DNA from: Hyphomicrobiales bacterium
GTDB lineage: Bacteria; Pseudomonadota; Alphaproteobacteria; Rhizobiales; Rhizobiaceae
Assembly (NCBI GenBank): GCA_900473205.1
Contig: UCLB01000007.1
Coordinates: 248,001-312,000 of the forward strand
Length of the DNA: 64,000 nt
Direction: 5' to 3'
The notes beneath the pieces are model-generated. The model ran no database searches, was not told the origin of the DNA, and saw nothing but the letters and a program-made list of their open reading frames with translations. Below, piece after piece: positions 43,005 to 55,253 of the stretch (positions are counted from its first letter, which is position 1; every line of letters starts with the position of its first letter). The translations under genes and the position numbers were made by a program.

Positions 43005-43319
43005 ATGACACCAGAACTGCTCTCTTTACCTCCCTCGCTTTCCATACGCGGCGCGGCTGCCGTGCATGAAAGCCTCCTCGACGCTTTGAAGACGAACAAA
43101 GCCATCACCGTCGATATTCCTGACGATGCTCAGGCCGATCTGAGCTTCATCCAGCTCATCGAGGCATCCAGAGTCTATGCCCGGACGGAAGGCAAATACA
43201 TCACACTGACGAAACCAGCCTCTCCCGGCATTGTTGATACGCTTCGGCGCGGTGGTTTCCTCACGAATATGGATGAGGCGTCTCGCCTCTTCTGGCTGCA
43301 TGGAAAGGAAATTCAATGA
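43005..43319 (+). CDS. STAS-domain protein, first gene of chemotaxis operon
   Basis: This 104-residue single-domain protein has the pattern of anti-sigma-antagonist-like STAS modules: LSIRGAAAVHESLLDALKTNKAITVDIPDDAQADLSFIQLIEASRVYARTEGKYITLTKPA. The usual phosphorylatable Ser lies in the D-S-x-x-L segment, here DLSFIQLI with Ser49. It overlaps cheY by four bases (ATGA). STAS proteins head several chemotaxis-like operons, but their role in them is poorly described. AGGAAA precedes the ATG. Confidence 0.78.
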   Translation: MTPELLSLPPSLSIRGAAAVHESLLDALKTNKAITVDIPDDAQADLSFIQLIEASRVYARTEGKYITLTKPASPGIVDTLRRGGFLTNMDEASRLFWLHGKEIQ

Positions 43320-43684
43320 GCGCCAACATTCTTACCGTCGATGATTCTGCAAGCATCAGAATGACAACGAAGATCGCCCTGACGAATGCCGGATATCAGA
43401 TCACGGAAGCAGTCGATGGTGCAGATGGTCTGACCAAGGCAAAAGGCGGCTCATTCGACCTCATCGTTACCGATCTCAACATGCCGAACATGAACGGCCT
43501 GGAAATGATCGAGGCACTGCGCCAGTCGCCTGCGCATACGGGTATTCCAATCATCTTCCTGACCACGGAATCCGATGCGGATATGAAAGCACGCGCAAAA
43601 GCCGCCGGTGCCACGGGCTGGGTAACCAAGCCTTTCGATCCGGAAAATCTCGTCAAAATCGTCAGGAAGGTTCTTGGTAGATGA
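43316..43684 (+). CDS. cheY: CheY-type response regulator
   Basis: This 122-residue receiver has Asp9-Asp10 acidic residues, the phosphorylation site Asp53 in LIVTDLNMPNMNG, the switch Thr in FLTTESD and the invariant Lys in VTKPFDP. As a stand-alone receiver, it is the presumed phosphoryl acceptor of CheA that acts on the flagellar motor or another output. It overlaps cheA by four bases. Confidence 0.9.
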   Translation: MSANILTVDDSASIRMTTKIALTNAGYQITEAVDGADGLTKAKGGSFDLIVTDLNMPNMNGLEMIEALRQSPAHTGIPIIFLTTESDADMKARAKAAGATGWVTKPFDPENLVKIVRKVLGR

Positions 43685-45672
43685 CCATACTGGACCCCAT
43701 TCAGGTTTTCAGAACAGAAGCAGCCGAGCTTTTCGAACAGATCGAAAGCGGCCTGCTCGACCTGTTGCATGACCTGTCCAATCAAGGGCAGATCGACGCC
43801 GTATTCCGCGGCCTGCATACCCTCAAGGGGTCCGGAGCCATGTTCGGTTTCGAGGCATTGGCCGCCTTTACCCACCATTGCGAAACCGCATTCGACCGCG
43901 TCCGCAAGGGAGAAGTGCCTGCAACCAGCGAACTGATCGCAGCCGTCCTTGAGGCGCAGGATCACATGCGCCGCCTCGTCGACAATCCTGCAACAGCTTT
44001 TCCTGAGACGGGTGATCGCCTGCTCGCAAAGCTGGAAGCAGCTGTTGGAACCGGCGCAAGCACCGTCCAGCACACCGCGCAGAGAGCCCCCGTCGCCAAG
44101 GCTGACGAACCATCCGTCGCCACCTGGCAGATCGATTTCAGCCTGCCTGCCAATGCCATGGCCAATGGCACCAACCCGCTGGGCCTGCTGGACGAACTGG
44201 CTGAGCTTGGAGAATGCACGATTGCCGCAAACACGGCAGCGATTCCCGCGCTTGATACGATCGACCCGACCAACCTTTATCTGTCCTGGTCTGTCACGCT
44301 GACGACGGATCAACCGCGCTCGGCCATCGACGACGTTTTCATCTTCGTCATGGACGATATGGAAATCGACGTCAAAAAAATCTCGAGCGAGCCTGCACCG
44401 TCCGCCGAGATCGTGCCGCCACCGGCACCGGTCGAAGAAGCGGCCAAGGCAAACCCTGCCGCCGCGCAGGCCAACGCCGATGGCAAGCAGAACAAGAGCG
44501 CCGAAAACGTTCGCGTTCCTGCCGAACGCCTTGACGAATTGATGGACCGCGTCGGCGAACTCGTCATCGCCCAGTCGCGTCTATCGCAGCTGGCCAATAC
44601 CAGCGTCGATATTCAGCTTCGTTCCGTCTCGGAAGATGTAGAACGCCTTTCGGGCGAGCTTCGCGACACGATGATGGTGCTTCGTATGGTGCCCATCACG
44701 CAGCTTTTCGGCCGCTTCCGCCGCCTCGTCCACGATCTCGCGCGCGAAACCGGCAAGCAGATCGAGCTTGTGACAGAAGGTGAAAGCACCGAAGTCGACA
44801 AGGCCGTCATCGAACGTCTTGCCGATCCGCTCGTGCACCTCGTGCGCAATTCCTGCGACCACGGTCTTGAAACCCCGGATGAACGTGTTGCAGCGGGCAA
44901 GAACCCTTCCGGTCAGGTAACCCTGATCGCACGCCAGACCGGCGGCGATGTGACCATCACCATTCGCGACGATGGTCGCGGGATTGATCGCCAGCGGGTA
45001 CGGGCAAAGGCGGAGTCCTCCGGCCTTGTTGCAGCGGGCGCCACGCTGACGGATCAGGAACTTCTGCAGATGATCTTCGAGCCCGGTTTTTCAACCGCTG
45101 CTCAGGTCACCAATCTGTCCGGCCGCGGCGTCGGCATGGATGTGGTGAAGAAGACCATCGAAGCCCTGCGCGGAACGATCAACGTCACAAGCTCGCCGGG
45201 CACAGGTTCGGAAATCACGCTTGCCATTCCGCTTACGCTGGCGATCATCGACGGCCTCCTCGTGCGGGTCGGCTCCGGCTGCTACGTCATTCCGCTGTCT
45301 GCGGTGGAAGAATGCCTTGAGCTTTCTCCCGAAAATGACGTCAAGTCGCGTGGCCGGTCGTTCATTTCGCTGCGGGAAAGCCTCGTTCCGTTCATTCGCC
45401 TTCGCGAGCTTTTCCATACGGGTACCAAGCCCGACCAGTTCCAGAAAGTCGTCGTCATCTCCACCGGATCGGAGCGTGTCGGTCTCGTCGTCGATCAGAT
45501 TATCGGCGACCACCAGACGGTCATCAAGGCGATGTCGAAACTGCACCACGATGTCGCGACCTTCTCGGGCGCAACCATTCTGGGTGATGGCAGCGTCGCC
45601 CTCATTCTCGATGTCGGACACCTCGTGGCCGCAGGCCAGCACCAGGAGGCGCAAATGCGTATTGCCGGATGA
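43681..45672 (+). CDS. cheA: chemotaxis histidine kinase CheA
   Basis: This 663-residue kinase has an Hpt domain (His46 in GLHTLKGSGAMFGF), then a divergent region at about 140-250 (TWQIDFSLPANAMANG…) in place of a classical P2 domain. After the Ala/Pro-rich linker (~245-275) come the dimerisation helices (VPAERLDELMDRVGELVIAQSRLSQLA), the ATPase domain (HLVRNSCDHGLETP, IRDDGRGID, GRGVGMDVVKK) and a CheW-like domain at the end. It links receptors to CheY and CheB. It overlaps cheY and cheW by four bases each. Confidence 0.92.
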   Translation: MTILDPIQVFRTEAAELFEQIESGLLDLLHDLSNQGQIDAVFRGLHTLKGSGAMFGFEALAAFTHHCETAFDRVRKGEVPATSELIAAVLEAQDHMRRLVDNPATAFPETGDRLLAKLEAAVGTGASTVQHTAQRAPVAKADEPSVATWQIDFSLPANAMANGTNPLGLLDELAELGECTIAANTAAIPALDTIDPTNLYLSWSVTLTTDQPRSAIDDVFIFVMDDMEIDVKKISSEPAPSAEIVPPPAPVEEAAKANPAAAQANADGKQNKSAENVRVPAERLDELMDRVGELVIAQSRLSQLANTSVDIQLRSVSEDVERLSGELRDTMMVLRMVPITQLFGRFRRLVHDLARETGKQIELVTEGESTEVDKAVIERLADPLVHLVRNSCDHGLETPDERVAAGKNPSGQVTLIARQTGGDVTITIRDDGRGIDRQRVRAKAESSGLVAAGATLTDQELLQMIFEPGFSTAAQVTNLSGRGVGMDVVKKTIEALRGTINVTSSPGTGSEITLAIPLTLAIIDGLLVRVGSGCYVIPLSAVEECLELSPENDVKSRGRSFISLRESLVPFIRLRELFHTGTKPDQFQKVVVISTGSERVGLVVDQIIGDHQTVIKAMSKLHHDVATFSGATILGDGSVALILDVGHLVAAGQHQEAQMRIAG

Positions 45673-46199
45673 ACCAGCCCCTTATGAAACAGCACGAAGA
45701 CGTGTGGGGCAGCAGCGACGACCTCGAAGTCCTGACCTTCAGCATCGAAGGCGAAACCTTTGCCATCGAAGCCGTGCAGGTTCAGGAAATTCTCGATCTT
45801 CTGCCTGAAACCGCCGTTCCCGGCAGCAAGCCATTCGTGGCCAGCGTCATCAATTTCCGTGGCAAGGTCATTCCACTGGCCGATATCCGTCTGGCCTTCG
45901 GCATGGGCGCTGCTGAAAAAACCATCGACAGCCGCATCATCGTCATTGAACTCCCGATTGAAGGCGAACGGACGCTGGTCGGCCTGCGCACGGACAAGGT
46001 TTACGAGGTCACGACCTTCTCCAAATCCGCCAGCGAGCAGCCACCAAGCGTCGGCATGCGGTGGAGGCCGGACTACATCAAATGCCTGGTCAAACGCGGA
46101 AGCGAATTTGTCATTCTTCCCAATCTCAATGCGATCTTCACGTCACAGCCCGACACATCCGTGAAAGGCACTTCCCGCAACAACATCGTAGAACTCTAA
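45669..46199 (+). CDS. cheW: CheW coupling protein (first copy)
   Basis: This 176-residue protein is one CheW/SH3-like domain: [56 protein letters not shown], then [14 protein letters not shown]. It couples receptors to CheA. It overlaps cheA by four bases and is 11 bp before the first receptor. The second CheW of the cluster (51989) is only distantly similar, so the two may pair with different receptors or array positions. Confidence 0.9.
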
Positions 46200-46210
46200 G
46201 GAATTCTGAA

Positions 46211-48025
46211 ATGCGATTCACCATCAAAATGAAACTAGCCGTCGCGTTCGGATTCCTGATCTTGATGCTTGCGGGAACTGCAACTTACGGCATTCTCAGC
46301 TTGGGCGCCTCCAAAGCCGCCATGGATCAGGTTGTCGAACGCACTGTTGTCCGCCTTGACAAGGCCCACCAGATGAACGAGCTGTCTCTGGTCACAGTCC
46401 GCGCCCAGAAAAACCTGATCCTTTCCAAAACACCTGCCGAAGCACAGACAGTCAAGAAGGTTGGTGACGAAAGCCGTGCGGAGCTCCACCAGATCCTTGA
46501 CGACATGGAGGCTACGGCCAGCGAGAGCACGCGCAAGGACTGGGTCGAATTGCAAGCCATCGCCAAAGCTTTCGATGCCAGCGATGATCGCATTCGCGCC
46601 TATATGCAGGAGGGAGATACCGCAGCGGCTGCGGCTTACTCTTCTGGCGAGGGTCGTGATGCAGCAAATCTGCTGACGCAAAAACTGAATGAGCGCGTAC
46701 AGACCAACCGCGACCTTCTTGATCAAGCCAAGCAGGCAGCCAATAACGACTATGAGCAAACCCGCTTGCTGCTGACGTCCTTATCTGTAGCAGCCGTCAT
46801 TATTGCTATCGGCACGGCGCTCTGGATCGCTGTCGGCATCAGCAATGGCCTGCGCAAGATCATGGTTGTTGCCGAAGCCGTCGCAGTTGGTGACCTTAAT
46901 CAGGATGTCGATATTAAGACCAATGACGAGATCAAGGATCTGGTCAATCGCATCAACATTATGACCGGAAATCTGCGCAATACCGCAAGTGTTGCCAACG
47001 AAATCGCAGACGGTAATCTGACGATCACGCCGAAGCCGCTCTCCGACAAGGACACGCTGGGTATTTCCCTGGAGCGCATGGTTGAGCGTCTTCGTGGCGT
47101 TGTAGGCGATGCACTCGCAGCCGCCGATAACGTCTCCTCGGGTAGCCAGGAACTGTCTGCAAGCTCTGAACAGCTTTCGCAGGGTGCGACCGAACAGGCA
47201 TCGTCTGCCGAAGAAGCATCCGCTTCGATGGAGCAGATGGCAGCCAACATTAAGCAGAACGCTGACAACGCCGCCCAGACCGAGAAGATTGCCCGCCAGT
47301 CTTCCAAGGATGCGGAAGCCAGTGGCGAAGCCGTTGGTCGTGCCGTTTCGGCCATGCGCACCATTGCCGAGAAGATCTCCATCGTTCAGGAAATCGCTCG
47401 TCAGACCGACCTTCTCGCTCTGAACGCCGCGGTCGAAGCCGCTCGCGCTGGTGAACACGGCAAGGGCTTTGCGGTTGTCGCATCTGAAGTCCGCAAGCTT
47501 GCAGAACGCAGCCAGGCCGCCGCCGCTGAAATCTCCTCGCTTTCCGGCGAAACGGTTCAGGTTGCGACCGAAGCCGGTGAAATGCTGAACCGTTTGGTTC
47601 CAGACATTCGCAAGACTGCCGAACTCGTATCGGAAATTTCTGCCGCATGCCGCGAGCAGGATATCGGTGCAAGTCAGATCAACGAAGCCATCCAGCAGCT
47701 CGATCTTGTCACGCAGCAGAACTCCGGCGCTTCTGAAGAAATGTCTGCAACATCTGAAGAACTGGCGGCACAGGCCGAAGAGCTTCAGGCAAGCATCGCC
47801 TTCTTTAAGGTGGATCGTGCTGGCGCAAGCCACGCTCCAAAGGCACAGGCTGCTGCGCGCTCTGCGGCTCCCGCACCTCGCCCGGTCGCGAAGTCGGCTC
47901 CAGTGCGTCGCCCTGCTCCAGATCATTCGGTTCAGTCACAACAGGCACGCGCCAAGGGTTTCGCGCTTGATATGTCGATGGGCGGACCAGATGCCAATGA
48001 TGCGGACTTCCGCGAAAGCGCGTGA
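46211..48025 (+). CDS. chemoreceptor (MCP), two HAMP units
   Basis: This 604-residue receptor has a membrane anchor at ~9-29, a periplasmic four-helix-type domain to ~190 and a second segment ([22 protein letters not shown], ~191-213). Two HAMP units follow, with GDLNQDV near 227 and GNLTITP near 268. The signalling domain runs ~300-530 with the conserved hairpin tip [41 protein letters not shown]. The C-terminus is an Ala/Pro linker and the tail [20 protein letters not shown]…. The open frame begins at 46061, but ATG 46211 fits the topology. It is followed by a hairpin, so it may be partly transcribed alone. Confidence 0.88.
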
Positions 48026-48037
48026 GTCATAACGAAG

Positions 48038-48068
48038 ATTGGGCTCGGGATCGTTTCCCGAGCCCAAT
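48038..48068 (+). terminator. hairpin between first and second receptors
   Basis: ATTGGGCTCGGGA and TCCCGAGCCCAAT form a perfect 13-bp stem around a 5-nt loop. No T run follows, so it may attenuate or stabilise mRNA inside the operon. Confidence 0.6.
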
Positions 48069-48193
48069 GTGATCGAGGTAACTACTATGACTGTCGTATA
48101 CTATTGCAGCAAGTGAACTGCATTACGGCTAATTCAAATTGAAGTAAAATTTACCTTTCCACCACCGTCTTATATTTTTTCGAAGGAATTATT

Positions 48194-50131
48194 ATGCGCT
48201 TCACAATTAAACTAAAACTGGCTTTGGCCTTCACATTAATCATCGCGATGGCTGCAGGCATGGCGACAATGTCAATTTTCAATCTTGCTTCTCTGAACAA
48301 TTCTGTGACGCAAATTATCGATGGCCCAGCAGAAAATTTGCAGGACCTTACGATCATGTCTGACGCTGTCTCGGCGGCAATTCGGTCCGAGAAGAACGCA
48401 GTCATGACAACTGACGCTCAAAAAATAACCACTTATCGTAATGAGGTAATGGAGCGCCGAAAACAGATTGAAGCAATTCTCGGCGAGTTTGAACAGGAAA
48501 CCAAGGGTGACATCAAGTCAGCTGCATCGATTTTCCGCTCAACATACACCGACTGGCTGAAGACGCAGGATGAAACTCTATCCTTGGCAATGCAAAATAC
48601 CGCTGAAAGCAACGAGCACGCCGGTCAGCTATCGATGACTGAAGGTGCCGCAGCAACAGACCGCTTGGTTGCAACATTGGCCACGTTGTCCTCAACGATC
48701 AACACCGACCTTCGCAATACTGACCAGGCAACGAATGTTCAATATGAAACGGCTAGGAATATACTTGTGGCCGGATCAATCGCGCTAGTCGTTCTCTCCG
48801 TCATTATTGCTTTCTTTATCGCTTTGGGCATCAGCCGAGGGCTCAGCAAGGCAATTTTTGCCTCACGCAACATCGCTATCGGTGATCTGGATCAGAATAT
48901 CGAAATCAAAACGAATGACGAAATTAAAGATCTCGTTGACAGCATGAACGCCATGACGGCCAATCTGCGTGCTACGGCCAGCGTCGCCAACACGATTGCT
49001 GCCGGCGACCTGTCGGAAGACGTCAAACCATTGTCAGACAAGGACACACTCGGCTTGGCGATGCGCAGCATGGTCACAAATTTGCGGAAAACCTCTGAGG
49101 TCGCAGACCTCATCGCAAATGGCGATTTGACGATTACGCCAACGCCGCTTTCCGACAGAGACACACTGGGAATGGCACTGCAGCGTATGGTCGAGCGTTT
49201 GCGTGGTGTGGTTTCGGATGCTCTGTCGGCAGCCGACAATGTTTCTTCAGGTAGCCAGGAACTATCTGCAAGCTCTGAGCAGCTTTCGCATGGTGCAACC
49301 GAACAGGCATCCTCTGCCGAAGAAGCATCCGCTTCGATGGAGCAGATGGCAGCCAACATCAAACAGAACGCCGATAACGCCGCCCAGACAGAGAAGATTG
49401 CACGCCAGTCTTCCAAGGATGCAGAAGCTAGCGGCGAGGCCGTTGGCCGCGCCGTCCACGCCATGCGCACCATTGCCGAGAAGATTTCCATCGTTCAGGA
49501 AATCGCACGCCAGACCGACCTCTTGGCGCTGAACGCTGCGGTGGAAGCTGCTCGCGCCGGTGAACATGGCAAGGGTTTTGCAGTCGTTGCTTCCGAAGTC
49601 CGTAAGCTTGCCGAACGCAGCCAGGCCGCTGCCGCTGAAATCTCCTCGCTTTCTGGCGAAACGGTTCAGGTCGCAACCGAAGCTGGCGAGATGCTGAACC
49701 GCCTGGTTCCGGATATTCGCAAGACGGCAGAATTGGTATCAGAAATCTCATCCGCTTGCCGTGAGCAGGATATTGGCGCAAGCCAGATCAACGAAGCGAT
49801 CCAACAGCTTGATCTTGTCACGCAGCAGAACTCCGGCGCTTCTGAAGAAATGTCCGCAACATCAGAAGAACTGGCCGCACAGGCCGAGGAGCTTCAGGCA
49901 AGCATCGCATTCTTCAAGGTGGAGCGTAGCAACGTGCGCCAGGCACAAAACACCTATGCTGCCCCACGCGCGCCCGCTCCTGCACATCGCGCCGCTGCAA
50001 AGCCTGCAGCCGCCACGAGCCGTCCAGAGCAGTCCATTCAAGCACAACAGGCCCGCGCAAAGGGTTTCGCGCTTGATATGTCGATGGGTGGCCCGGACGC
50101 CAGCGACGCGGATTTTCGCGAAAGCGCGTGA
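48194..50131 (+). CDS. chemoreceptor (MCP), three HAMP units
   Basis: This 645-residue receptor has membrane segments at about 9-29 and 191-214, with a ~160-residue periplasmic helical domain between. Three consecutive HAMP units carry GDLDQNI (230), GDLSEDV (271) and GDLTITP (310). The signalling domain is nearly identical to the preceding receptor at both protein and DNA level. The tail is again [20 protein letters not shown]… after an Ala/Pro linker. It is 168 bp after the first receptor with the hairpin between. Its own N-terminal domain is unrelated in sequence, so it should sense a different ligand. Confidence 0.88.
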
Positions 50132-50141
50132 CAACAATCAA

Positions 50142-50170
50142 AAGGGTTCGGAGACTTTTTCCGAACCCTT
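50142..50170 (+). terminator. hairpin between second and third receptors
   Basis: AAGGGTTCGGA and TCCGAACCCTT form a perfect 11-bp stem with a 7-nt T-rich loop. Again there is no clear T run after it. Confidence 0.6.
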
Positions 50171-50296
50171 GGAACCAATGCGACGATGATTGTCGTGCAA
50201 ATTGTCGTGGAGAGTGAATGCATCACTTAATCCGCGATTGCAGGGTGGCAAACACCCGGATGCTCATCATCTCAATCGTTGCATAGAGGACCTACC

Positions 50297-51985
50297 ATGC
50301 GGCTTACCATCAAACTGAAACTCGGCCTGATATTTGGACTTCTCGTCCTTCTTATGGGGGCATGTGCTGTCTTCGGCATTAACGGCTTAAGACAGATGGA
50401 CGGCCTCAAGGACAGCATGATCAGCGGCCCGATCCGCCAGGATGACGCTGCCAATGAAGTTTCAGGCGCTTTTGATGGCCTTGGCCTTGCTGAAAGCGAC
50501 TTGCTTCTCTCGACGTCACCCGAGCGCATGCAAAACGCATTGAAGATGATCGAAACCGAACGTAAAAACTTCACAGACGCCCTGGCAATTGGCGAACAAA
50601 GTGCGTCGGAAGCGTTCAAGCCGAAATGGGCGGAAATTCGCGATTTTTGGGATGATTTCACCGCCCTTCAAGATCGCGTCATCAATTTGGTAAAATCGAA
50701 TAATCGCGAACAGGCACTGGAACTCAACCAGAACGAAGGAACGGTCGCATCCGAAAAGCTCGATGCCATGACCGAAAACCTCGCCGTATTGACGGAAGAG
50801 GGTATCGCGGCATCTGACAAGCTGAGCGAAGAGGCCTACAACAACACCTTCACGACGCTTCTCAGCCTCGCTGTCGTCGCCGCCATCATCTCTGTGATTT
50901 CAGCGGTCCTGATTTCCATCTCCATCAGCCGCGGCCTTAACAAAGCGATCACGTCCGTTCGCAATGTTTCCGAAGGCGATCTTACGAACATGGCCGTCAT
51001 CACCACGCGCGATGAGATCGGCACGCTTCTTGAACACGTCAACACGATGATCGAGCGTCTGCGCGGCGTCGTTTCAGACTCCATCTCGGCTGCCGAGAAC
51101 GTTTCCACCGGTAGCCAGGAACTGTCTGCAAGCTCCGAACAGGTCTCTCAGGGCGCGACCGAACAGGCATCCTCTACGGAAGAAGCATCCGCTTCGATGG
51201 AACAGATGGCCGCCAATATTCGCCAGAACGCTGAAAACGCTGCACAGACGGAAAAGATCGCTCGTCAGTCCTCCACGGACGCGGAAGCCAGTGGCGCCGC
51301 CGTTGGCCGGGCCGTTGTCGCCATGCGCACGATTGCTGAAAAGATTTCCATCGTTCAGGAAATTGCGCGCCAGACAGACCTTCTCGCCCTGAACGCAGCC
51401 GTTGAAGCCGCACGCGCCGGTGAACATGGCAAGGGCTTTGCGGTCGTTGCTTCCGAAGTTCGCAAGCTTGCCGAGCGCAGCCAGTCTGCCGCTGCGGAAA
51501 TCAGCTCCATGTCCAGCGATACGGTAAAGGCTGCCGCTGATGCCGGTGAAATGCTGAACCGTCTAGTGCCGGATATTCGCAAGACCGCAGAACTGGTTGC
51601 CGAGATTTCTGCAGCCTGCCGCGAGCAGGACATCGGTGCCGGCCAGATCAACGAAGCGATCCAGCAGCTGGATAAGGTGACACAGCAGAACACCAGTGCG
51701 TCTGAAGAAATGTCCGCGACATCCGAGGAACTGGCAGCACAGGCCGAAGAGTTGCAGACGAGCATCGCCTTCTTCAAGGTCGAGCGTAGCAATGGTCGTG
51801 CGACACCACCTGCTGCAAAGCAGGCTGCATTCCAGCAGCATAGAGCGCCTCAGAAGGCACCAGCTCGCAAGGCTACCTACGATCATACCGTCAGGACACA
51901 ACAGGAACGCGCAAAGGGTTTTGCACTGGACATGTCCATGGGCGGTCCTGATGCCAACGACGCGGATTTCCGGGAAAGCGCTTAA
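50297..51985 (+). CDS. chemoreceptor (MCP), one HAMP unit
   Basis: This 562-residue receptor has membrane segments at about 9-29 and 188-212. It has one HAMP unit, with GDLTNMAVI near 227, then the signalling domain with the usual tip and the same Ala/Pro linker and [20 protein letters not shown] tail. Compared with the other two receptors, the signalling domain is somewhat more diverged ([18 protein letters not shown]). ATG 50297 has AGAGGA upstream. A second CheW gene starts three bases after its stop, so they are co-translated. Confidence 0.88.
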
Positions 51986-51988
51986 ACC

Positions 51989-52483
51989 ATGGCTATCACA
52001 TCTTCTGACACCCAGTATGTAACGTTCAGTCTCGGCGAGGAGGTCTTCGCCGTGCCCGTCGATGTCGTGCGAGAAATTCTCGACCATGAAGAGGCGTTCA
52101 AAATCCCCCATGGGCCGGATTACCTGCTGGGTCTCAGGGATGTGCGCGGACACGGCGTGCCCGTCATCGACCTGCGTCTGCGTCTTGGCATGAGCAGAAC
52201 GGTCAAGACGCCGCACACCCGCATTCTGGTGCTGGACATTCCCGTAGGTGGCAAATTTCTGGCACTGGGGCTGGTGGCCGACAAGGTCTTTGAAGTCACC
52301 CCCTTCCGGCACGAAAACATCGAGACCGCACCCGACATCGGTGTGCGCTGGAATTCGGCCTACATCGCTGGCGTGGTGCGGCGCGAGGGCGACTTTGTCG
52401 TCATCATCGACCTTGCCGAGCTTTTCTCCAGCGAGGCCGGTAGCCTTGCCCAAATCAACAATGGCCCTGTTCGCGCTGCTTAA
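51989..52483 (+). CDS. cheW: CheW coupling protein (second copy)
   Basis: This 164-residue CheW domain has VTFSLGEEVFAVPVDVVREILDHEEAFKIPHGPDYLLGLRDVRGHGVPVIDLRLRLGM and ALGLVADKVFEVTPF. It differs in many positions from the first CheW (45669), for example the RDVRGHG linker region. It is co-transcribed with the third receptor and with cheR, and could form a separate signalling unit with it. Confidence 0.9.
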   Translation: MAITSSDTQYVTFSLGEEVFAVPVDVVREILDHEEAFKIPHGPDYLLGLRDVRGHGVPVIDLRLRLGMSRTVKTPHTRILVLDIPVGGKFLALGLVADKVFEVTPFRHENIETAPDIGVRWNSAYIAGVVRREGDFVVIIDLAELFSSEAGSLAQINNGPVRAA

Positions 52484-52497
52484 TGGAGTAAAAACAT

Positions 52498-53346
52498 TTG
52501 AATGCCCCCGCTTACAGTATGTTCGACGACAATCTGAGTTCGCGAGATTTTCGTCAGCTTGCCGACTTCATTTATAATTATTGCGGCATCAAAATGCCCG
52601 AGACCAAGCGCTCCATGTTGGAAGGTCGCTTACGTAAACGGCTGAGAGCCACCGGCTGCCCAAGTTTCAGCGCCTATTGCGACCTCCTCTTTCGCCATGG
52701 TGGTATGGAAACGGAATCCGTTTTCCTCATTGATGTCGTGACGACGAATAAAACAGACTTTTTCCGCGAGCCGAACCATTTCGACTTCATGGAACAGGTC
52801 GCCATGCCCGCCTTGGCGGACAAGGGTCATCAGCGCATTCGGGCCTGGAGTGCTGCCTGCTCGACCGGAGCGGAGCCCTATACCATGGCCATGGTCATGG
52901 CTGAGGCTGTCGAGAGAAAGGTCATCTCCGATTACAGCATTCTCGCAACGGACCTTTCCACAGATGTGCTGAAAAAGGCGCATAGCGGGATCTATGCCAG
53001 AGACCTGACCGAGCCCGTCCCCTCAGATCTCGCGCGAAAATACGTGATGCCAGCGAGGGACAAGCAGCGTGACGAGGTGCGCATAACACCGAAACTGCGT
53101 TCGAAGGTCGGTTTCGCCAGGCTCAACCTCATGAACCCAAGCTATGACGTGGGAGAGGCCTATCAGATCATTTTCTGCCGAAACGTTTTGATCTACTTCG
53201 ACAAAAAGACGCAGGCGCATGTGCTGACCCAGCTTTGCAAATGCCTGATGCCCGGCGGCTATCTTCTGATTGGCCATTCCGAAAGCGTGACCGGCATCAA
53301 TCTTCCCGTCAAGCAGGTTGCCAATACCGTATTTATGAAACAGTAA
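52498..53346 (+). CDS. cheR: chemoreceptor methyltransferase CheR
   Basis: This 282-residue methyltransferase has the N-terminal helical domain (DFRQLADFIYNYCGIKMPETKRSMLEGRLRKRL, ~12-44) and the SAM-binding IRAWSAACSTGAEPYTMAMVM (~115-135), YSILATDLS and IIFCRNVLIYFD (~225-236). It methylates glutamates of the receptors' signalling domains. The start is TTG 52498 after TAATGGAGTA; ATG 52519 is an alternative. None of the cluster's receptors ends in the usual NWxxF pentapeptide that tethers CheR. Confidence 0.88.
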   Translation: MNAPAYSMFDDNLSSRDFRQLADFIYNYCGIKMPETKRSMLEGRLRKRLRATGCPSFSAYCDLLFRHGGMETESVFLIDVVTTNKTDFFREPNHFDFMEQVAMPALADKGHQRIRAWSAACSTGAEPYTMAMVMAEAVERKVISDYSILATDLSTDVLKKAHSGIYARDLTEPVPSDLARKYVMPARDKQRDEVRITPKLRSKVGFARLNLMNPSYDVGEAYQIIFCRNVLIYFDKKTQAHVLTQLCKCLMPGGYLLIGHSESVTGINLPVKQVANTVFMKQ

Positions 53347-53355
53347 TGGCGTAAC

Positions 53356-54441
53356 ATGGTGAAAAAAACGCGTGTCCTGATTGTTGATGATTCTGCCAGT
53401 GTACGTCAGACACTGACGGCGGTGCTTGAGGCCGATCCTGCCATAGAGGTGATCGGCGCAGCGTCCGATCCCTATATGGCTGCCAAGAAGATACAGGAAG
53501 ATTTGCCTGATGTGATCACGCTGGATGTGGAAATGCCGCGAATGGACGGCATTACCTTTCTCCGCAAAATCATGTCGCAACATCCGATTCCCGTGGTCAT
53601 GTGTTCTTCACTGACGGAAGCAGGCTCGGAAACCCTGCTTCAGGCACTGGAAGCCGGGGCCGTAGACATCATTCTGAAACCACGCATCGGCGCTGCCGAT
53701 CATCTGGCAGAATCGGCTCTGCGCATTTGCGAAGTCGTGAAAAGTGCTGCCCATGCGCGAGTAACGGGCGTCAAGGCTGCACGGTCTGCGGCTGCGAGTG
53801 GACCGCAAGCCAAACTGACAGCAGATGCCGTTCTGCCTCCGCCCTCCGGGCGAGCCATGGCGCGAACGACAGAAATGGTCGTCTGCGTCGGCGCCTCGAC
53901 CGGCGGCACGGAGGCCTTGCGTGAGATGCTGGAAAAACTGCCTGCCAATTCACCGGGCATGGTCATCGTCCAGCATATGCCGGAAAAATTCACCGCAGCC
54001 TTTGCCAGACGTCTGAACACGCTTTGTGAGGTCGAGATCAAGGAAGCGGAGGATGGCGACCCGGTTCTGCGTGGCCATGTGCTGATTGCTCCCGGCGACA
54101 AGCATATGCTGCTGGAACGGCAGGGCGCACGCTATTATGTTTCCGTTCGAAACGGCCCCCTCGTCTCCCGTCACCGCCCCTCGGTCGATGTGCTTTTCCG
54201 CTCGGCTGCTCGCTCCGCAGGCTCCAACGCTATGGGTGTGATCATGACGGGAATGGGCGATGATGGCGCGCGTGGGATGCTTGAAATGCATCAGGCTGGC
54301 GCTTTCACCGTCGCGCAGGATGAAGCGTCGTCCGTTGTCTTTGGCATGCCCAAAGAAGCCATCGCTCACGGCGGCGTCGATAAAACCGTTCCGCTAGATC
54401 ATATCGCCCGTGAAATCCTGTCGGAAGACCGTCGCCGCTAA
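53356..54441 (+). CDS. cheB: chemotaxis response regulator and methylesterase CheB
   Basis: This 361-residue protein has a receiver domain with Asp57 ([13 protein letters not shown]), then a ~45-residue Ala-rich linker and the methylesterase domain with the catalytic triad: Ser in [10 protein letters not shown] (~178), His in [15 protein letters not shown] (~205) and Asp in [11 protein letters not shown] (~300). It removes methyl groups from receptors and deamidates Gln. It ends the chemotaxis operon; a short hairpin follows. No CheD, CheC or CheZ gene was seen in the window. Confidence 0.92.
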
Positions 54442-54518: not shown

Positions 54519-54560
54519 TCACATGGGCGATGAGCGCCGCACCCATTACGGGATATGGTT

Positions 54561-55253
54561 ATGGCGGTTATTACTTTCGCAAATACTAAGGGCGGCGCTG
54601 GCAAAACGACGGCAGTTCTACTGCTGGCTTCGGAACTGGCACGCCGCGGACTGAAGATTTGCGTTATCGATACTGATCCGCAGCGCTGGCTTTCCAAGTG
54701 GCGGGAAGCAGCCGACTATCGTGTCGACCTCTCCGTCATCACCTATGTTTCGGCATCCAGCCTGCAGCAACATGTCTTGGACAACCGCAGAAAATTCGAC
54801 CACGTCATCATCGATCTCCCCGGCGCCCAGTCTCCCCTTCTGGCGACAGCGGTTGGCCTTTCCAACCATGTGCTGATACCCGTCCAGGGAAGCACCATGG
54901 ATGCGCAAGGCGGGGCGCAGGTTCTTGAACTCCTACGCTATCTCGACGATCGCGCCTCCATCAAAATCCCCCATTCCGTCGTCCTCTCCCGCGTCAATTC
55001 CATGGTCACAACGCGCGCGCTTCTGGCGGCAAAGGCACTCTTGGCAAAACGCGACGTGAACGTGCTGAACACACCTATCATCGAACGCGCCGCCTTCCGG
55101 GACATGTTCGAATTCGGCGGCTACCTCCACATGATGAGCCCGTCGCAGGTCAGCAACCTCGACAAAGCCCTGCAAAATGCAAACGCATTTGCCGAAGACG
55201 TCCTTAGGCTTCTGCCAGCGCAGTCAATCGCGAGATATTCTTCGGCGGCTTGA
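54561..55253 (+). CDS. ParA/VirC1-like ATPase, no ParB partner
   Basis: This 230-residue ATPase has the deviant Walker A TKGGAGKTTAVLLL (~7-20) and the Walker A' DTDPQRWLSKWRE (~39-51), plus a Walker B-like VIIDLPGAQS. The later part (IIERAAFRDMFEFGGYLHMM) resembles VirC1 and solitary ParA proteins rather than RepA or chromosomal ParA. No ParB-like gene adjoins it. Start 54561 follows GGGATA; ATG 54555 is an alternative. It stands 119 bp after cheB on the same strand. ParA homologues next to chemotaxis genes (ParC, PpfA) position receptor arrays, but here the role is open. Confidence 0.82.
   Translation: MAVITFANTKGGAGKTTAVLLLASELARRGLKICVIDTDPQRWLSKWREAADYRVDLSVITYVSASSLQQHVLDNRRKFDHVIIDLPGAQSPLLATAVGLSNHVLIPVQGSTMDAQGGAQVLELLRYLDDRASIKIPHSVVLSRVNSMVTTRALLAAKALLAKRDVNVLNTPIIERAAFRDMFEFGGYLHMMSPSQVSNLDKALQNANAFAEDVLRLLPAQSIARYSSAA

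Follow-up and report, generated by a model that had tools for sequence, protein, structure and literature searches.

Three adjacent chemoreceptors of a rhizobial Che2-type operon carry two, three and one HAMP units

The closest described relative of the system considered here is the Che2 cluster of Rhizobium leguminosarum, of class F8, with the receptors McrA, McrB and McrC (RL4031-4033), which are placed in class 34H (PMC7617929, PMC8429497). Passages of PMC7617929 describe a minor reduction of the swimming halo in a che2 mutant and suggest a role of the system in bacteroid development and nodule maturation; the main-text passages of PMC7617929 and PMC8429497 state no HAMP numbers for McrA-C. 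The window, a stretch of 64,000 nucleotides from a Hyphomicrobiales bacterium of the Rhizobiaceae (assembly GCA_900473205.1, contig UCLB01000007.1, positions 248,001 to 312,000), contains an operon that is best described, by its genes and their order, as a Che2-type cluster like the mcrABC cluster of R. leguminosarum. It encodes three adjacent membrane chemoreceptors, M1, M2 and M3, which bear two, three and one HAMP units. The R. leguminosarum cluster differs from it in sensors, species and order, the latter being 2-3-1 in the window. Both class labels are borrowed: F8 is taken from PMC8429497, which gives it for R. leguminosarum and Bradyrhizobium clusters, and 34H is the label stated for McrA-C in PMC7617929.

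The 2, 3, 1 ladder is confirmed. The coordinates and lengths (604, 645 and 562 residues) given in the initial annotation are exact, as are the positions of the GDL/GNL motif that marks each unit: GDL 227 and GNL 268 in M1, GDL 230, 271 and 310 in M2, and GDL 227 in M3. An additional GNL at M1 residue 253 lies within the second helix of unit 1 and marks no unit. Hidden Markov models (HMMs) trained solely on receptors of other genera, with 149 first and 116 divergent units, agree with these counts, finding one canonical and one divergent unit in M1, one and two in M2, and one canonical unit in M3, at 58.9-75.6 bits versus at most 6.0 bits across 600 shuffled copies; minor partial matches of 8.7-11.4 bits overlap the real units. 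Pfam HAMP (PF00672) is above its cut-off in all three proteins and, at a loose cut-off of E 1, gives two, three and one stretches in M1, M2 and M3. Taken singly, the divergent units of M1 and M2 fall below the Pfam cut-off (15.5, 16.3 and 19.5 bits); with the family HMMs they reach 70-76 bits. At E 0.01 Pfam reports one HAMP stretch in each of seven relatives' membrane receptors, whether these have one, two, three or four units, so that added units are easily overlooked by annotation.

Structure models point the same way. In an AlphaFold2 monomer model of the M2 region, helices 2-34, 48-75, 91-114 and 130-182 are separated by three connectors, and the monomer model of a four-unit stack has four connectors between helices. 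The HAMP arrangement of a first amphipathic helix (AS1), a connector with glycine-x-hydrophobic and a second helix (AS2) is seen both in the connectors of the models and in the GDL or GNL of each unit. AS2 runs continuously into the next AS1, as in Aer2-type stacks, in M2 model helices 48-75 and 91-114, and the glycine retained in such stacks is present in 154/154 divergent units, all of which fit a loose pattern ending in LG. DExG is absent from the divergent units, which have DxLG instead, as read off an alignment of 24 receptors. In a PDB sequence search with the M2 region or its profile, the top profile match was 9trk, a histidine kinase-Gcn4p fusion, and Aer2 was not among the matches listed. 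The profiles give unequal counts and the extra segments are modelled as HAMP units, which disposes of the two objections that the initial annotation had itself raised.

Related operons show how general the ladder is. Loci (L numbers; G numbers denote genomes) were gathered through CheA, with an orthologue at E 1e-150 in 21 of 39 genomes of the genus; 80 named loci came from one genome scan and 29 others from relatives. Among the 110 loci scanned, window included, 103 had receptor frames: 225 in all, 200 once 25 duplicates were dropped. Seven of the 200 were set aside, namely L148 14472 (cut stack), L126 18353 (CHASE3 sensor, atypical stack), one receptor each in L070, L080 and L146 (unlike, soluble-looking stacks) and two in L085 (CheA 49% identical), leaving 193 countable receptors in 90 loci. 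False extra units from the motif pattern (L092, L095, L126 16392, L078) were corrected by hand before counting, and false units from the first HMM in L131 and L129, the latter most likely due to a wrong seed, were also hand-corrected. One, two, three and four units occur in 85, 72, 26 and 10 receptors. HAMP counts are all different in 69 of the 69 operons with at least two countable receptors; loci with fewer, often at a contig end, stand outside this set. The sets are 1-2 (37 operons), 1-2-3 (21), 1-2-4 (five), 1-2-3-4 (four), 1-3 (one) and 2-4 (one). Rungs 1 and 2 are each present in 68 operons, against 26 operons for rung 3 and 10 for rung 4. On the CheA tree the presence of rung 3 changes 14 times and that of rung 4 seven times, gains and losses being counted alike.

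In a wider set, CheA was found at E 1e-170 in 46 of 397 genomes of the order, and 31 of the 41 new ones were fetched, 28 of them from other families. Of these 31 loci, 15 have at least two such receptors, and in 13 of the 15 the HMM assigns a different count to each receptor; among the 13, L188 is probably the same record as L119, the two contigs being equally long. L166 has receptors with two units and one unit together with a CHASE3 receptor that has three units by eye and two by HMM.

Several receptors stand apart. The CHASE3-sensor receptors of L126 (18353-20365) and L166 (7288-9387) seemingly have a HAMP of their own and then two further units; the L126 stack also reads as three units by eye versus two by HMM. 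On this by-eye reading, the three-unit CHASE3 stacks appear to have been built separately from the others. In L148, from R. leguminosarum Tri-43, the receptor from 14472 on has a sensor of the three-unit type and a stack cut inside the first connector, either a real deletion or an assembly fault. L070 (11790-13835), L080 (7162-9234) and L146 (16493 on) each encode an additional, soluble-looking receptor with a long HAMP_N3/HAMP_2 array (Pfam, L070 copy), resembling Aer2-like poly-HAMP receptors. Draft contigs stop in or near receptor genes in L104, L107, L112, L147, L163, L170 and L173, probably because of near-identical signalling domains.

The units are set at fixed distances. GDL spacing is 41 residues in 72/72 two-unit receptors, 39+41 in 26/26 three-unit receptors and 39+39+41 in 10/10 four-unit receptors, and the last GDL lies 128 residues ahead of the kinase-tip motif in all 108 multi-unit receptors; in single-unit receptors this distance is 130 (82/85) or 129 (3/85). 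The spacing being invariant, length varies by whole units only, and the earlier observation that the receptors differ by whole HAMP units, of 39 or 41 residues, holds. The membrane-proximal unit itself comes in two types: at the position of the DExG glycine, 104 of the 108 first units of poly-HAMP receptors have K or R (106 of 108 by another pattern), whereas 80 of 85 single units have G, and correspondingly M3 retains DEIG, which M1 and M2 do not (DEIK). In four-HAMP receptors the two middle units are 92% (L120) or 79% (L161) identical. By contrast, 12 of the 19 other receptor loci of this genome have one HAMP-linker-HAMP spacing, in which the tip follows the first HAMP by about 218 residues and the second by 137; L017 comes close to this, and L005, L007, L013, L015 and L019 are without that first HAMP. 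The contrast in uniformity of spacing is thus good but incomplete.

The sensors are mobile. Those of M1-M3 are only 7-33% identical per 30-residue block over about residues 31-180. Over 216 residues the M2 sensor shares 70.8% identity with the sensor of a single-HAMP receptor from a congener (L062); the HAMP of that receptor is 88.5% identical to the M3 HAMP over 26 compared residues. Conversely, the M3 sensor shares 65% identity with the sensors of three-HAMP receptors found in L061 and L066. The M2 stack is closest to these same L061 and L066 stacks (79% and 77%; median of 25 compared, 69%), yet their sensors are only about 20% identical to that of M2 in an ungapped comparison. In such sensor-swap pairs similarity falls off between the second transmembrane helix (TM2) and the first GDL. 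Among 21 loci of the genus, sensor type B is joined to one unit in eight (including the window) and to three in two, and type D to one unit in three and, solely in the window, to three units. L086, whose CheA is closest to that of the window (96%), has no three-unit receptor within the stretch examined, and L083 has two-HAMP and three-HAMP receptors with 89% identical sensors. The expectation that unit number might be kept per receptor across relatives fails on these data, the M2 and M3 sensor types standing on other rungs in other species; the proposal of a natural experiment on transmission length is strengthened, since the same sensor type is found with one HAMP and with three.

In a tree of 191 sensors M1, M2 and M3 each group with receptors of other species and not together, and at least 31 changes of HAMP number are required by parsimony. 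Its well-supported branches alone force fewer, namely 9, 11, 11 and 5 changes for the four counts taken singly, and long branches leave parts of it unsure. A FastTree sensor tree likewise gives 31, or 27 without the six longest rows. Simulations that kept the sites of change and drew new counts at the frequencies observed produced operons with repeated counts in 2000/2000 runs in each of six settings (FastTree, 500/500 in each of four), and redrawing single-tip changes only gave a mean of 8.1 repeat operons among 68, against none observed. This rejects independent change of count, but on its own the simulation does not distinguish selection from exchange of sensors between old slots. Judged from these comparisons, unit number follows the chassis, not the sensor, and the rungs are best seen as old chassis among which sensors have been swapped, stepwise insertion being only part of the account.

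The signalling domain behaves differently again. Fourfold-degenerate sites were compared in 20-codon blocks between multi-unit receptors, 39 of the pairs lying in one operon. Beginning 64 residues ahead of the tip, agreement is 0.68-0.78 within operons, versus 0.44-0.63 for the same blocks between close species (CheA identity at least 0.86) and 0.37-0.54 between distant ones (below 0.76), where pairs of the same and of different count differ by at most 0.02. In the last HAMP unit the values are 0.54-0.58 within operons, 0.56-0.58 for close pairs of the same count and 0.50-0.53 for close pairs of different count; within the HAMP stack the excess within operons is small or absent. High agreement within operons without a same-count effect indicates that the signalling domain evolves in concert within the operon and keeps no memory of HAMP number. 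M1 and M2 are 97-100% identical as proteins in seven 30-codon blocks (M1 residues 310-519). Fresh gene conversion among M1-M3 was considered and rejected, since M1 and M2 agree at only 67 of 115 comparable fourfold sites of these blocks (31-79% per block); conversion is visible as a family-wide average, not as a recent event in the window. The receptors also share a conserved C-terminal tail, GGPD..D.DFR..A (window 46211-51985; L057-L165), with GGPD within the final 20 residues in 175 of the 187 countable receptors whose ends are complete; in several of the genome's other receptors the end is WEEF instead.

The reading tentatively favoured here, plausible though by no means probable, is that the all-different stacks of these receptors serve as length tags giving each sensor its own array. 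The comparisons themselves show receptors of three parts: the first is a sensor head (four-helix bundle and TM2, sometimes with the first HAMP helix) that has moved between receptors; the second, a slot-specific stack of one to four HAMP units, one membrane-proximal and none to three divergent units of 39 residues; and the third, a signalling domain near-identical across all receptors of an operon. Different stacks would hold receptors at different heights above a common CheA/CheW baseplate, each unit adding an estimated 2 nm or so (every 24-residue helix serves two units, which leaves each unit some 12 residues of 0.15 nm). Receptors of different length are reported to sort into distinct arrays, 14 residues or about 2 nm being sufficient (PMC6759762), and HAMP number would therefore act as a length tag, each co-operonic sensor lying in its own array and all on one kinase. 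Duplication of divergent units and recombination between neighbouring genes would generate the rungs, with which sensors would then be re-paired. The stronger form of the idea, an insulation code in which one kinase set serves up to four height-stepped arrays with ideally one receptor kind each, is rather unlikely. Passages of PMC7184735 lead one to expect about 22 nm for an F8 class 34H receptor, and if this holds for one HAMP the heights would be about 22, 24, 26 and 28 nm. Were insulation real, co-operonic sensors on one CheA would neither mix in trimers nor share adaptation, and homogenised signalling domains, mobile sensors and unequal unit numbers would be explained together.

A number of observations weigh against length tagging. 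Length sorting was demonstrated with receptors lengthened by an insertion in the signalling domain and not by way of HAMP number (PMC6759762), the heights are estimates from monomer models, imaging of Methylomicrobium alcaliphilum did not show the F8 array that had been expected, according to passages of PMC7184735, and no array of this receptor system is described in the literature found. Rungs 3 and 4 are dispensable, since most operons do without them (26 of the 69 have rung 3, and 10 have rung 4). Outside the family, L182 has two two-unit receptors, the sole clear exception in the wider set; counted by HMM only, the seven set-aside receptors produce repeats in L126, L148, L070, L080, L146 and L085; and L002 (C10), in the genome of the window, has another HAMP arrangement, with a further HAMP-like stretch and a spacing that departs from that of the 12 uniform loci. 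Finally, old slots that exchange only their sensors could stay distinct without selection.

This last point leads to the best-surviving alternative, possible although on the unlikely side, in which ancestral chassis with one, two, three and perhaps four units were inherited, lineages lost rungs and swapped sensors by recombination between neighbouring genes, and counts differ by inheritance of chassis only, the number itself being without function. The near-constant presence of rungs 1 and 2 and the affinity of the M2 stack to the genus's other two three-unit stacks are in keeping with it, and sensor exchange alone would leave the sets distinct. It accords less well with the 14 and seven changes of rungs 3 and 4 on the CheA tree, with the 92% identical units of L120, given which drift in number might be expected, and with the adjoining signalling domain, which is homogenised by conversion while no equal pair is found in 69 operons; the CHASE3 receptors of L126 and L166, with three-unit stacks that by eye appear separately built, likewise sit uneasily with it.

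An improbable alternative is that the receptors share one mixed array in which each unit inverts or damps the signal, number setting its sign, gain or bias. HAMP units of Aer2 propagated opposite signals in chimeras (PMC3570549), and the choice of K/R or G at the DExG glycine means that the membrane-proximal unit differs with what comes after it. A rule by which each unit flips the sign predicts that parity is kept, but parity-keeping changes number 9.6 of 31, versus 7.6 expected from count frequencies, and such a rule was rejected; nor does tuning explain why counts within operons all differ. The origin proposed in the initial annotation, in which M1-M3 simply gained or lost one module step by step, is very unlikely. 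Gain of units does occur, as the L083 pair with two and three units and the similar middle units of L120 and L161 argue, and the lengths of M1-M3 do differ by 41-42 residues. Yet M1-M3 do not derive from one another by simple steps: their sensors are strongly divergent and lie with those of other species in the sensor tree, the single-unit chassis is of another type (DEIG as opposed to DEIK/DEIR), and rungs 1 and 2 are common far beyond the genus. An assembly artefact across near-identical repeats is hardly credible, for although many contigs end in or near receptor genes and the L148 stack is cut inside one unit, the pattern recurs in 69 operons, including L125 (1-3-2) in a record titled complete sequence, and in genomes of two and four contigs (G010, G022).

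The surrounding operon (Table 1) has the order STAS-like, CheY, CheA, CheW, M1, M2, M3, CheW, CheR, CheB, with M1-M3 flanked by the two cheW genes, in a genome of 5.0 Mb in 55 contigs. A 4HB_MCP sensor is above the Pfam cut-off in each of M1, M2 and M3, as is the MCP signalling domain (PF00015), the latter scoring 103-105 bits versus 170-181 bits for 15 other receptors of the genome. The best matches of the window CheA among named records are from Agrobacterium and Rhizobium. A gene for a ParA/MipZ-like ATPase (Pfam VirC1, AAA_31, MipZ) lies 3' of cheB at 54555-55253 on the plus strand; among 141 loci inspected, duplicates included, cheB was detected by motif in 112, and in 67 of these such a gene lies no more than 3 kb from it. 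ParA-like proteins place chemoreceptor arrays in other bacteria.

Table 1. Genes of the cluster and HAMP units of M1-M3, in window coordinates
Feature	Coordinates	Strand	Support
STAS-like protein, first gene of the cluster	43005..43319	+	Pfam STAS_2 26.8 bits, just below cut-off 29.2
CheY-like single response regulator	43316..43684	+	Pfam Response_reg
CheA histidine kinase, comparison anchor	43681..45672	+	Pfam Hpt, H-kinase_dim, HATPase_c, CheW
CheW, copy 1	45669..46199	+	Pfam CheW
M1, membrane chemoreceptor, 4HB_MCP sensor, 2 HAMP units, MCP signalling domain, 604 residues	46211..48025	+	
M1 HAMP unit 1, canonical, DEIK, residues 210-249	46838..46957	+	64.0 bits, outside-genus HMM
M1 HAMP unit 2, divergent, residues 251-288	46961..47074	+	75.6 bits, outside-genus HMM
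M2, membrane chemoreceptor, 4HB_MCP sensor, 3 HAMP units, 645 residues	48194..50131	+	
M2 HAMP unit 1, canonical, DEIK, residues 213-252	48830..48949	+	63.7 bits; connector in model
M2 HAMP unit 2, divergent, middle, residues 254-292	48953..49069	+	72.3 bits; connector in model
M2 HAMP unit 3, divergent, last, residues 293-331	49070..49186	+	70.2 bits; connector in model
M3, membrane chemoreceptor, 4HB_MCP sensor, 1 HAMP unit, 562 residues	50297..51985	+	
M3 HAMP unit, canonical, DEIG, residues 210-250	50924..51046	+	58.9 bits, outside-genus HMM
CheW, copy 2	51989..52483	+	Pfam CheW
CheR methyltransferase	52498..53346	+	Pfam CheR, CheR_N
CheB methylesterase	53356..54441	+	Pfam CheB_methylest, Response_reg

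Dozens of loci have natural receptor sets that combine one signalling domain and one kinase with a varying HAMP number, and these sets make it testable in living cells what one added HAMP does to a signal and whether receptors of unequal height can share an array. No HAMP-number ladder is described in the parts of the open-licence literature that were searched; the components are already known, poly-HAMP stacks from Aer2 and FrzCD and the cluster from Che2, and the ladder is new as far as literature was found. Orthologous operons in records titled R. leguminosarum have counts of 1-3-2 (L149) and 1-(cut stack)-2 (L148). Aer2 of Pseudomonas aeruginosa (PDB 3LNR, 4I3M, 4I44) has a poly-HAMP stack and is described as soluble with a PAS domain, whereas the window stacks come straight after TM2 and vary in length among the receptors of one operon. 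The di-HAMP of Myxococcus xanthus FrzCD likewise consists of tandem HAMP units, which there affect chemoreceptor clustering (passages of PMC12077210), but FrzCD, unlike the window receptors, is a single receptor, cytoplasmic and DNA-bound. In the 38H receptors of Azospirillum brasilense, as described in passages of PMC6759762, HAMP number also varies among the receptors of one bacterium; there the extra HAMP replaces a helical linker and the height is predicted to be equal, whereas no such compensation is seen in the window receptors.

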